Position numbers and translations under genes: made by a program. DNA of 64,000 nucleotides from Halorussus limi. Its GTDB lineage: Archaea; Halobacteriota; Halobacteria; Halobacteriales; Haladaptataceae. Where the stretch lies: assembly GCF_023238205.1 (NCBI RefSeq), contig NZ_CP096661.1, positions 62,001 to 126,000 of the forward strand. The letters run 5' to 3'. A model generated the notes under the pieces. It was not told the DNA's origin. It searched no databases and saw only the letters and a program-made list of their open reading frames with translations. Shown piece after piece: positions 15,122 to 24,301 of the stretch. Every line of letters begins with the position of its first letter. Position 1 is the first letter of the stretch.

Positions 15122-16174
15122 TCACCACGTCACGATGCGGGCGAGTACGAACACCAGCAGTGCGGCCAGCAGCGACCCGAGAATCGACTCCAGACCTGCC
15201 AAGAACCGCGCGAACGACCCTATCGGTTGGATGTCGCCCAGTCCGAGCGTGGCGAACGTGACGACGCTGAAGTAGAGGCTCTTGAACAGAACCTGTCCGA
15301 TCCACCACCACGGCGCTTCGTCCGGATTCTCTATCGAGTACGTCACCGGTTGCCCGGCCTGAATCTCCTGAATCCCGCCGGTCAGCGGGTAGAGGAGCGC
15401 GGCCACGACGACCACGACGAGCGACGTGAGGAGCACTCGGTAGGGACTGCTGCCGTACTGCATCGTCCAACGGGACAGTTCCCACTTTATTGCCTCGGTG
15501 TATCTCGACTGTCCCCACGCGAGGCGGCGGCGAGCGTCGCGCTCCTGATAGTAACTCCGGCGGGCTAACTCCGGGAGTCCGTTCTCCTCGTACAGGGTTT
15601 GAAACTGCCGATACACCCACGCCGCCGCGTCGAGCGGTTGCTCGTCGACCAGGTTCGGCGGCGCGTTTTCTCGGTCGTAGACGGACGTTCCACCCATCTC
15701 GGTCCCGCCTCCGATGTGCATGTCGGTGAGTATCGTCTCGTGGAGTCGGGCGCCTTCGAGCGTCGCCCGCCGGACGTCGGCGTTCGTCAGAATCGCCCCT
15801 TCGAGGTTCGCGTCGGTGAAATCGGCACCGAGAGCGCTGGCGTCCGTCAGCGTCGCCAGTGTCAAGTCGGTCTCGGTGAAGTCCGCCCCCTTCAAATCGG
15901 CGCCCTTGAGGTTGGCTCCGATGAGGGAGGACCCGACGAACCAATCGACGTTTGCGAGAGAGGCCTCTCGGAGATACGCGCCGTGAATGGCGTCTCTGGA
16001 CTCCGGGTCGGCGTCTTCGAGTTGCTCTTTGGTTTTTCCCTCGACCGGCGCGTGCCAGACGCACCGGTCGTGGTCCTCCCACACCGGCCGGTCGCACGGT
16101 CGGGTCGGAATGTCGTCGTTGTCGAGTCCGACTTCGAGTCGGTATCCACACCGGTCTGACGCTGTCGTTCCCAT
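15122..16174 (-). CDS. Pentapeptide-repeat protein fused to a two-TM K+ channel pore
   Basis: A 350-aa protein. Residues 9-41 hold C-x17-C-x10-C-x2-H, a possible zinc site. Residues about 65-150 are pentapeptide repeats (ANLKGADLKGADFTETDL pattern), which form a right-handed beta-helix. The C-terminal part has two hydrophobic helices (about 246-265 and 325-348) flanking the pore-loop TFATLGLGD (selectivity filter about 309-314), the signature of two-TM potassium channels. Likely a gated ion channel in the cytoplasmic membrane with the pentapeptide domain inside the cell. ATG 16174 is chosen because the TATA-like TTTTTAAAA (16194-16203) lies about 25 nt upstream; the longer frame would start inside that box. 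Confidence 0.88.
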   Translation of the reverse strand: MGTTASDRCGYRLEVGLDNDDIPTRPCDRPVWEDHDRCVWHAPVEGKTKEQLEDADPESRDAIHGAYLREASLANVDWFVGSSLIGANLKGADLKGADFTETDLTLATLTDASALGADFTDANLEGAILTNADVRRATLEGARLHETILTDMHIGGGTEMGGTSVYDRENAPPNLVDEQPLDAAAWVYRQFQTLYEENGLPELARRSYYQERDARRRLAWGQSRYTEAIKWELSRWTMQYGSSPYRVLLTSLVVVVVAALLYPLTGGIQEIQAGQPVTYSIENPDEAPWWWIGQVLFKSLYFSVVTFATLGLGDIQPIGSFARFLAGLESILGSLLAALLVFVLARIVTW

Positions 16175-16203: not shown

Positions 16204-16360
16204 TCACTAGCGGAACCGAGTTACTTAGTCGCAGGCTCGCTCGCCGGATTCGACCGCTTTCGAGAACTCCGAGCGTCTACACGGCGAACCCGAAGCCGAG
16301 GGCATCGAGTCGCGAGACGAATGCGATGAATTAACTGCCCCTCGTTCGGAAGTGGCGGGT

Positions 16361-21068: not shown

Positions 21069-23489
21069 ATGGCGGATGATTCTTCGCAAGACGTCACGAC
21101 GGGGGATCAAGTCGGCGGGGAGGAGGGAGACGTAGAGACGGAACTGTCGCGGGACATGAGTCTCTTCGACATCACCTTCATCGGCGTGGGGGCGATGATC
21201 GGCGCGGGCGTGTTCGCGCTCACCGGGTTCGCCGCCGGACTCGCCGGACCCGCGCTGACGCTCGCGTTTCTCCTCAACGGCTTCGTGGCGATGTTCACTG
21301 CGGTGTCGTACGCGGAACTCGGCGCGGCGTTCCCCGAGGCCGGCGGTGGCTACCTCTGGGTGAAAGAGGCGCTCGTAGACCCCAACGGGTTCTACGCCGG
21401 GTGGATGAGTTGGTTCGCTCACGCGGTCGCGTGTTCGCTCTACGCCGTCACCTTCGGGGTCTTCCTCGTCGAACTCATCGTCTACTCGACGGGACTCCCC
21501 CACGAGTTCCATCTCTTCGGGTTCGTCACCCCGATAATGGCCGAAAAGGGATTATCGGTCCTCATGGTCGCCGCCTTCGCATACATCAACTACCGCGGAG
21601 CGGAGGAGACCGGAAAGGCGGGCGTGGTCGTCACGGGAATCAAAATCGTCATCCTCGGGGCGTTCATCGCGTTCGGCGCGTACGCGACCGTCACCGCTCC
21701 CCAGTGGACCGACAAGTTCTTCGCCAGTCCCTCGTTCGCGCCGAACGGCCTGTTCGGTATCATCGGCGCGATGGGGTTCACCTACATCGCGTTCGAGGGG
21801 TACGAAATCATCGTGCAGTCCGGCGAAGAGGTCGTCGACCCCGGTAAGAACATCCCGAAGGCGGTGTTCTATTCGATGCTGATAGTCGTCCCTATCTACG
21901 TCCTCGTGGCGTTCGCGTCCATCGGCGGCATCGACGTGACCCAACGCATCATCGGGTTAGCCGAGGTGGGCGGCCAACAGAGCGTCTACACGTGGGAACT
22001 GCTCGGCGAACTCGGCGAACTCGGCATCATCCGCGCCGCGGGCCAGTTCATGCCCTACGGCGTTCCGCTGTTGCTGTTCGCCGGACTGGCGGCGACCATG
22101 AGCGCACTGAACGCGACAGTGTACTCGTCGAGTCGCGTCTCGTTCGCCATGGGTCGCGACCGCGCGCTTCCCGGCGTCTTCGACCGAATTCACCCCGACA
22201 AGCGGACGCCCCACTGGGCGATTTTCATCTCCGCTATCCTCATCGCGGCGATGGCGGTCATCCTTCCCATCGAGGCGGTTGCGGCTTCGGCGGACATCAT
22301 GTTCATCCTGCTGTTCGTCCAAGTGAACTGGACGGTCATCCGGATGCGCGAGACACACCCCGACCTGCCGCGGACGTACGAAGTGCCGTACATGCCGTGG
22401 CCGCCGCTCATCGGCATCGGACTGCAGATACTACTGACGCCGTTCCTCATCTACACCCTCGGACTGGAGGCCATCGGTATCGGCGAGAGCAACCACGGTC
22501 TCATCGCGCTGGTGACGACCGCAATCTGGATGCTGTTCGGTCTCGCGATTTACTACGGCTACTCCAAGCGAAAGGAGGCCGAGCAGATAGAGCAGGAGAC
22601 GCCCACGCTGCTGACCGAACGTAGTCCGTCGGAGTCGGACGGTCAAATCGTGGTCCCGATAGCGAACCCGGAAAACGCCGAGCAGTTGATGCGGACCGCG
22701 GTCGATATCGCGCGCGACAAAGACGCCGAAATCCTAGTGATGAGCGTCGTCACCGTCCCTCAACAGACCCCGATTTCCGAGGGTCGGACGTTCGTCACGG
22801 ACGAACGGGAGGTGGTCGAGCGAGCGATGGACATCGCGAAGGAAGTCGACGTGCCGGTCAGCGGGACGGTCCGTATCGGTCACGACGTCGCACAGGCGAT
22901 CATCAACACCGTCGAACAGTACGACTGCGAGACGGTTCTGATGGGGTGGAAGGGACAACACAAGACTCAGCGGCGAGACATCGTCCTCGGAAGTAACGTC
23001 GATACGGTCGTACAGAAGGCGGACGCCGACGTACTCGTCGAGCGAATCGGAAGCGCGACGGGGACCGTCGAGTCCATCCTGCTCCCGACGGCGGGCGGAC
23101 CCCACGCCGAGTTCGCCGCCGAAATAGCGCAAGCGATAGCCCGCACGACGGGCGCCCGTATCGACGTGGTTCACATTGTCGACCCGGGCGCGAGCGACCA
23201 GCGGCGACAGGAGGCACGGGACACCGTCGAGTCTACGGCTGCTATCTTCGAGGGTGACGACATCGCCGAAACGAACGTCGTCGAGGGCGAGGACATCGTC
23301 ACCGCTATCGTTGACCGGTCGGAGTCCTCCGACCTCACGATTATCGGTGCCACCCGAGAGGGACTGCTCCAACAGTTCGTCTTCGGGGTCGTTCCCGAAC
23401 AGGTTGGATGGCAGGCGAAGAACACCGTCATCATGGCGAAACGGAACACGGACATTGCGTCACGACTCGCTCGTTGGCTCGGGCGGTAA
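21069..23489 (+). CDS. APC-family amino-acid permease fused to two universal-stress-protein domains
   Basis: An 806-aa membrane transporter. After an acidic N-terminus, residues about 30-490 form an APC/amino-acid-permease core with around 12 TM segments and the consensus TM1 loop GVGAMIGAGVFALTGFAAG. Residues about 520-660 and 665-790 are two UspA-like domains; the second contains the nucleotide-binding-type GATREGLLQQFVFG. APC-USP fusions occur in haloarchaea and probably let ATP/AMP status gate uptake of amino acids or polyamines. It has a leader with a good Shine-Dalgarno. The neighbour on the opposite strand is TrkA, suggesting a membrane-transport/stress block. Substrate is unknown. Confidence 0.9.
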   Translation: MADDSSQDVTTGDQVGGEEGDVETELSRDMSLFDITFIGVGAMIGAGVFALTGFAAGLAGPALTLAFLLNGFVAMFTAVSYAELGAAFPEAGGGYLWVKEALVDPNGFYAGWMSWFAHAVACSLYAVTFGVFLVELIVYSTGLPHEFHLFGFVTPIMAEKGLSVLMVAAFAYINYRGAEETGKAGVVVTGIKIVILGAFIAFGAYATVTAPQWTDKFFASPSFAPNGLFGIIGAMGFTYIAFEGYEIIVQSGEEVVDPGKNIPKAVFYSMLIVVPIYVLVAFASIGGIDVTQRIIGLAEVGGQQSVYTWELLGELGELGIIRAAGQFMPYGVPLLLFAGLAATMSALNATVYSSSRVSFAMGRDRALPGVFDRIHPDKRTPHWAIFISAILIAAMAVILPIEAVAASADIMFILLFVQVNWTVIRMRETHPDLPRTYEVPYMPWPPLIGIGLQILLTPFLIYTLGLEAIGIGESNHGLIALVTTAIWMLFGLAIYYGYSKRKEAEQIEQETPTLLTERSPSESDGQIVVPIANPENAEQLMRTAVDIARDKDAEILVMSVVTVPQQTPISEGRTFVTDEREVVERAMDIAKEVDVPVSGTVRIGHDVAQAIINTVEQYDCETVLMGWKGQHKTQRRDIVLGSNVDTVVQKADADVLVERIGSATGTVESILLPTAGGPHAEFAAEIAQAIARTTGARIDVVHIVDPGASDQRRQEARDTVESTAAIFEGDDIAETNVVEGEDIVTAIVDRSESSDLTIIGATREGLLQQFVFGVVPEQVGWQAKNTVIMAKRNTDIASRLARWLGR

Positions 23490-23527
23490 CGACGCGACAC
23501 TCCCTACAGCGGTCTCCTGTGGACTCG

Positions 23528-24217
23528 CTAGGTGACTTTCGACCGGACTCCCTCCTCACCCACGAACACTTCGATAATCTCGGGTTCGAAGCCGCGCGTC
23601 GAGAACACGGTTACCAAGTCCCCGGTCCGAATTTCGGTGTCGCCTTGCGGGAGGATGACGGAGTGGTCGCGTTCGATGGCGACCACCCGAACGTCGTCGG
23701 GGAGGATGCCGTCTTCGTCAGCAGTAGCGAGCGTCCGGTGAACGAGCGGGCTACCCTCGCCGACCGTAATCTCGAATATCTCCGCGTCCCCGGAGAGGTG
23801 CATGAAGTCCTTGATTGCCGGCCGCTGGACCGCCCGATAGAGGTACTCTGCGATCAAGTGTTCCGGATTTTCGAGGACGTTGACGCCGAGTTGGCGGAAC
23901 AGACCCATGTGTTCGGGGTTGTGGACGACGGAGACTTGGGAGGGGATTTCGAGTTCTTGAGCGAGGAGCATCACCATGATGTTCGTGGCGTCGGATTCGG
24001 TCGTGCTGATGATGGCGTCGGCCTGTTCGGCGCCCGCTTCCTCGAGCGCGTCCATCACCGTCGCGTCTCGGTTCAGCACGAGACAGTCGAAGTTCTGGGC
24101 GGTACGGGTGGCTACTGCCTCGTCTTTCTCGATTACGACCACGTTGTTGTTCTCTCGGGTCGCGATTTCGAGGAGTTGCGACCCGATGTCGCCCGCACCA
24201 ACGATAATGACGTACAT
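23528..24217 (-). CDS. trkA: TrkA-type K+ uptake regulatory subunit
   Basis: A 229-aa cytosolic regulator that binds NAD(H) and gates a TrkH-type potassium channel. The TrkA_N/RCK domain starts with YVIIVGAGDIGSQLLE (Rossmann GxGxxG) and ends with a VVHNPEHMGLFRQLGV segment. The TrkA_C domain (about 140-229) includes FEITVGEGSPLVHRTL. Family proteins are often about 220 aa (single unit) or 450 aa (tandem); this is a single unit. ATG 24217 is chosen because it begins the first beta strand and lies about 25 nt after a TATA-like CTTTTAAG, giving a leaderless mRNA. The trkH gene lies 0.7 kb away. Confidence 0.92.
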   Translation of the reverse strand: MYVIIVGAGDIGSQLLEIATRENNNVVVIEKDEAVATRTAQNFDCLVLNRDATVMDALEEAGAEQADAIISTTESDATNIMVMLLAQELEIPSQVSVVHNPEHMGLFRQLGVNVLENPEHLIAEYLYRAVQRPAIKDFMHLSGDAEIFEITVGEGSPLVHRTLATADEDGILPDDVRVVAIERDHSVILPQGDTEIRTGDLVTVFSTRGFEPEIIEVFVGEEGVRSKVT

Positions 24218-24301
24218 GCTGGTTTTAGGAAGGCACAATCGCTTAAAAGTGATGGATTCTGATTCCACAATTCTAAGTAGGAGAACTACGAAGTGCGAAT
24301 C

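Follow-up and report, generated by a model that had tools for sequence, protein, structure and literature searches.

Two-transmembrane (two-TM) potassium channels such as KcsA, KirBac, NaK and MthK (PF07885) share a common plan, in which a first transmembrane helix (TM1) is followed by a pore helix, a selectivity filter of the TxGxGD type and a second transmembrane helix (TM2) that carries a glycine. In other two-TM channels, the soluble arm is cytosolic. Pentapeptide-repeat (PPR) proteins (PF00805), among them HetL, NP275/276, Qnr and MfpA, have a beta-solenoid in common. A third point of comparison is HalA. One report (PMC13275509) describes HalA as an ion channel that is blocked by the poly-dA adducts of HalB. 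According to another (PMC12657230), the Hailong oligomers suppress the effector, which is freed when phage exonucleases act.

In a gene of the salt-loving archaeon Halorussus limi, a PPR beta-helix domain is joined to a complete two-TM pore of the K+ type. This combination was already proposed in the first-pass annotation, and the Pfam matches, an AlphaFold2 model and the structure matches obtained with VIA agree on it. The gene lies in a window (the whole stretch of 64,000 nucleotides that was analyzed, to which all positions refer) on a contig of 311,372 bases, part of a genome of 4.62 Mb in five contigs. It is a minus-strand ORF of 350 amino acids (15122..16174), with its ATG at 16174 and its stop codon at 15122-15124. 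On re-reading the sequence, the ORF and its coordinates, the residues C9, C27, C38 and H41 and the TLGLGD filter were all found to be as first annotated. An alternative GTG start at 16207 is disfavoured; the orthologues L011 and L012 begin at the Met of the window ORF.

Purifying selection acts on the gene, which is intact, and is strongest in the pore loop. Orthologues at 77-79% identity keep the start Met, the domain order and the filter. Against two close orthologues (L012 and L011, in this order; NG86 method, rough values with synonymous rates near saturation), the overall dN/dS is 0.158 and 0.189. The shared start Met and this overall dN/dS of 0.16-0.19 mark the ORF as more than a chance reading frame. 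The lowest ratios are found in the pore loop (0.032 and 0.023) and TM1 (0.023 and 0.073), followed by TM2 (0.086 and 0.120) and the hairpin that precedes TM1 (0.067 and 0.132). They are higher in the PPR domain (0.286 and 0.208) and in the N-terminal head (0.343 and 0.405), where purifying selection is the weakest of the whole protein. Head and PPR thus evolve more quickly than the pore, which might be expected of a sensor that tracks shifting ligands. The closest relatives include one annotated as Halorussus salinisoli. The orthologue in genome G014 is broken in two by a frame shift.

The protein starts with a Cys-His head (residues 1-45, 16040..16174, minus strand like all features below), in which C9 (16148-16150), C27 (16094-16096), C38 (16061-16063) and H41 (16052-16054) stand out. 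The PPR domain follows at about residues 63-165 (15680..15988). It matches PF00805 with an E value of 1.8e-19 (69.3 bits against a cut-off of 20.2) and consists of tandem A(D/N)LXX repeats in a right-handed beta-solenoid, as in the known PPR proteins. Unlike in those proteins, the solenoid is attached to a membrane pore and bears a Cys-His cap. It scores far below the NCBIfam cut-offs of the Qnr/MfpA topoisomerase protectors: the best Qnr family reaches 27.4 of the required 240 bits, and MfpA 25.4 of 360. An Arg-rich helical hairpin or linker (residues 178-243, 15446..15643), seen in the model and marked by invariant W, Y, R and YG..P columns, leads to the membrane part. The hairpin has no Pfam match in the window protein, and the best in any of 31 members is TPR_7 at 0.015; the search for a PDB relative found none (best E value 0.062). 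It is therefore a conserved element without a Pfam family or PDB relative found.

The membrane part is composed of TM1 (residues 244-265, 15380..15445; a model helix and a region of low dN/dS), the pore helix (residues 289-309, 15248..15310), the selectivity filter TLGLGD (T309-D314, 15233..15250) and TM2 (residues 320-349, 15128..15217; model and alignments), with E329 and the glycine G333. The Ion_trans_2 family PF07885 matches residues 281-348 (E 1.3e-10, 41.5 bits against a cut-off of 22.5), and together with the TxGxG(D/N) filter and two TM helices around a pore helix the protein shows the features of a two-TM K+ channel. According to the model and the alignments, it ends one residue past TM2 and a C-terminal regulatory domain is absent. 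In contrast to the known two-TM K+ channels, there is no C-terminal RCK or Kir domain, the soluble part consists solely of the N-terminal PPR arm, and the filter reads GLG. This GLG in place of GYG is unusual, yet it recurs in two relatives (L110 and L186).

The AlphaFold2 model (mean pLDDT 81.4, pTM 0.47) shows, in order, the beta-solenoid, helices at 180-197, 201-221 and 225-239, TM1, the pore helix and TM2; with this pTM, the placement of the arm versus the pore is unreliable. The PPR part aligns with 4yc5 (VIA Z 18.1, rmsd 1.5 over 116 residues) and with HetL (3du1; Z 17.9, rmsd 2.6 over 120 residues). The best structural matches of the pore model are K+ channels, namely GORK (9la1; Z 11.2, rmsd 3.0 over 105 residues) and, with Z of about 10-11, SthK, KirBac and KcsA.

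The protein is, with some reservation, probably a PPR-gated K+ channel. For this reading speak the two Pfam domains above cut-off, the conserved domain order, hairpin and filter, the constrained pore and the structural matches to K+ channels. Against it stand the negative outcome of the searches for a ligand, a partner gene and a conserved neighbour, the loss of the filter in 19 of 113 two-TM domains of the family, the unusual GLG and the low pTM. The window protein would be one subunit of a tetrameric, K+-selective two-TM channel. Its arm is the only soluble candidate for gating, since nothing follows TM2, and it is likely to be cytosolic, because an Arg-rich stretch precedes TM1 and there is no evident signal peptide. 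The PPR arm with its Cys-His cap would sense a partner protein, a nucleic acid or a small molecule. On binding its partner the arm would pull on TM1 through the Arg-rich hairpin, and binding or release of the ligand would in this way open or close the pore. In a cell with molar K+, an open pore would allow K+ to follow its gradient, and the membrane potential would be clamped. The tetramer, the K+ conduction, the cytosolic arm and the gating by the N-terminal module are all steps that we infer.

The domain order is not restricted to Halorussus. Relatives at an E value of 1e-5 or better were found in 20 of the 28 genomes of the family (its own genome counted), and at 1e-10 in 102 of the 293 genomes of the order. 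At the level of the phylum, 107 of 294 genomes gave a match in a profile search, many of them to the PPR only. Full-length relatives at 38-79% identity retain the order, the hairpin and the filter in the alignments. Beyond the order, loci in other genomes of the phylum (L116, L119 and L120) and in one record of Aeromonas caviae (L129) show this arrangement too, with an N-terminus that contains Cys followed by PPR, hairpin and two-TM pore. Given these loci and the relatives across the archaeal order, the domain order is widely scattered and is no one-off fusion. The combination had been called uncommon, which is right in part, but full-length relatives are spread through the order. The Aeromonas record (NZ_AP026896.1) is 4.94 Mb long, filed as a plasmid with 18 annotated features, and is probably a mislabelled chromosome.

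Homologues also occur on plasmids of haloarchaea (for example, WP_227356039 in Haladaptatus salinisoli), and some plasmid-borne relatives lie near transposase, integrase or toxin-antitoxin genes. When 12 window genes were compared with 13 loci by tblastn, the channel gene alone was matched. In an all-against-all comparison of the ORFs of 23 stretches, a long common gene order was confined to one clade (L088, L089, L090 and L093) and a few pairs such as L075/L077. Neither comparison turned up an operon partner. At 21069-24268, some 5 kb away from the channel gene, a TrkA-domain protein is encoded next to an amino-acid permease that carries universal-stress domains. On two plasmids, of Haloarcula SYNS111 (L131:5504-6705) and Halalkalicoccus jeotgali (L223:4992-6123), PPR and channel are annotated as adjacent separate genes, by gene splitting or decay. 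A protein of 1,400 amino acids (L065:998-5200 in G068, also in L064) combines HEAT repeats, the Cys-His head, PPR and the K+ channel pore.

A filter can be recognised in each of the 37 orthologues and paralogues that were aligned, with GYG, GFG or GLG among the relatives. For a wider view, 125 distinct proteins of the family were aligned over their C-terminal 175 residues; 12 without a two-TM end were dropped and 113 labelled. With the canonical filter defined as TxG[YFL]G[DN], so that ALGFGD (L101 and L180) counts as a variant, 76 of these two-TM domains are canonical, 18 variant (e.g., TLSYGD in L061 and L062, GYSN in L119 and L120) and 19 have lost the filter. Homologues lacking the pore had been named as the finding that would speak against the idea; the close relatives (37/37) retain the filter, but 19 of the 113 domains of the wider family do not.

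The filter-less domains are well preserved otherwise. The TM2 glycine and S303 are present in 19/19 and E329 in 15/19, with Q in three more, and the proteins are long ORFs (369-727 amino acids counted from the head). In a tree computed without the filter columns, the loss takes 7 changes, at least 4 of them forced by well-supported branches, although this is a quick tree with long branches and the number of losses is uncertain. Grouping the 19 proteins in a single clade is rejected (p-AU 1.16e-5). More than one filter loss, as read from these sequences, is thus a safer claim than any exact count. In G049, G093 and G096, the head search found filter-less members alone and no other kind, so that there is no need to see these as auxiliaries to a canonical partner. 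With 19 of 113 domains filter-less, the retention of the family as a whole is not explained by K+ conduction.

In the head, 36 of the 37 relatives in an alignment based on homology to the window protein, which is itself counted, carry C9, C27, C38 and H41 together, and the one exception (L016) lacks both C9 and C38. This joint loss is as predicted by one shared metal (or thiol) site. The evidence lies in these 36/37 of alignment A2 only; in alignment A5, the rows were picked on the Cys/His pattern and the invariance is partly by construction. The mean pairwise identity of the head is only 0.45. When 27 heads, most of them from channel proteins, were combined into a profile, 47 of the 117 genomes searched within the order gave a match. 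The 75 distinct head-bearing ORFs, whose class shares are no census given that profile, were sorted by eye into 39 with a canonical K+ filter, 9 with a variant filter, 16 filter-less two-TM proteins, 1 doubtful case (L193), 4 with one TM (L195, L199, L201 and L207) and 6 without TM, at least four of which (L013, L157, L176 and L210) resemble pieces of split genes. A scripted classification of the same ORFs gave 38 canonical, 9 variant, 10 lost, 11 one-TM-or-unclear, 6 without TM and 1 cut. The head belongs with the PPR module rather than with the pore, since it is also carried by PPR proteins that have a single TM, have lost the filter or lack a pore. Judged from these sequences, its most likely role is to cap the solenoid, as a structural metal site or a redox element, rather than to act as a gate.

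Several head-bearing proteins depart further from the window protein. The haloarchaeal pleolipovirus Harhisp1 (MW344767.1, L132:5890-7206) encodes a head-PPR module with a different membrane tail, in a region with a RelE/CopG pair. A poreless protein of 1,389 amino acids (L070:163-4332, G274) carries the head-PPR module before a phosphoribosyltransferase-like domain. In L127:984-1295 and L145 (G060:C1:593510), an internal deletion fuses the head to the pore loop and TM2 in a product of 104 amino acids, probably from a decayed gene.

In a different, fairly unlikely reading, the head-PPR module would detect viral attack and the two-TM pore would be the effector that dissipates gradients and stops growth, like Hailong HalA. 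Such a part in phage defence is possible, though the support for it is weak. HalA is an ion channel of similar length, and its structure with oligodeoxyadenylate (9nyi) ranks fourth in the Foldseek search with the full model (E 7.8e-7), where 361 columns span most of the 333-residue chain; however, the match has a TM-score of 0.21 and an rmsd of 14.8. HalA is also outside the top 50 for the pore-only model and absent among the listed matches of the sequence searches with the hairpin profile and the PPR-only query. It is not among the VIA matches listed for the full or pore-only model either, which excludes nothing, and it does not appear among the PDB sequence matches listed. The patchy distribution, the plasmid copies and the lack of conserved neighbours would suit a defence gene, as would the archaeal pleolipovirus that carries the module with another membrane tail, the several filter losses and the splitting or frame-shifting of the gene in several genomes. 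On the other hand, PADLOC matches none of the 37 proteins, and among the 7 nearby window genes scanned with Pfam there is no nucleotidyltransferase, HalB-like or other defence gene. Three scans of viral contigs gave 0 confirmed relatives. The viral protein family phrog_15350 matches residues 175-350 of the window protein (E 1.7e-64 for the whole protein).

In an extended form of this idea, which we regard as unlikely, the head-PPR module would be a membrane-tethered cytosolic sensor and the two-TM domain an effector under shifting selection, forming archaeal HalA-like, sensor-gated pores in virus and plasmid conflict. The pores would be K+-selective in some lineages, while elsewhere the filter would have been dismantled repeatedly to give non-selective or silent pores.

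Ordinary K+ homeostasis is an improbable explanation. The channel would then be a leak, constitutive or tuned by osmotic conditions, that sets the membrane potential in a cell with molar K+, and the PPR arm a scaffold for assembly or anchoring only. The intact and strongly constrained filter is in line with this, and nine Ion_trans_2 matches above cut-off point to many K+ channels in the genome. Nevertheless, the patchy presence without a fixed locus is a poor fit to a housekeeping gene, and the two further head-PPR two-TM proteins of the same genome would be redundant. Very improbable is the metal-gated K+ leak of the first-pass annotation, in which Zn or Fe at C9-C27-C38-H41 opens or closes the pore: the retention of the four residues and the paired loss in L016 fit one shared site, but the head also occurs on filter-less two-TM proteins, on proteins with one TM or with an unrelated C-terminus, hence untied to pore gating, and is the least constrained part of the protein.

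The PPR-gated K+ channel is thus the reading retained here. Homologues in haloarchaeal entries are named after one domain only, either "pentapeptide repeat-containing protein" or "potassium channel family protein". The search for literature on a PPR-K+ channel, which was made without most subscription papers, returned none. Both domains are known singly; as far as can be told, the new unit is the head-PPR-hairpin-pore family with its repeated filter loss. The family is scattered and unstudied in the literature searched, and some of its members have lost the potassium filter and kept the rest of the channel. If the proposed function is correct, K+ flow through the window protein would be gated by its pentapeptide-repeat arm, and for this type of sensor no channel study was found in that literature. 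The repeated loss of the filter, with TM2 and its glycine retained, is a natural experiment on a K+-channel scaffold without K+ selectivity, in cells with molar K+.
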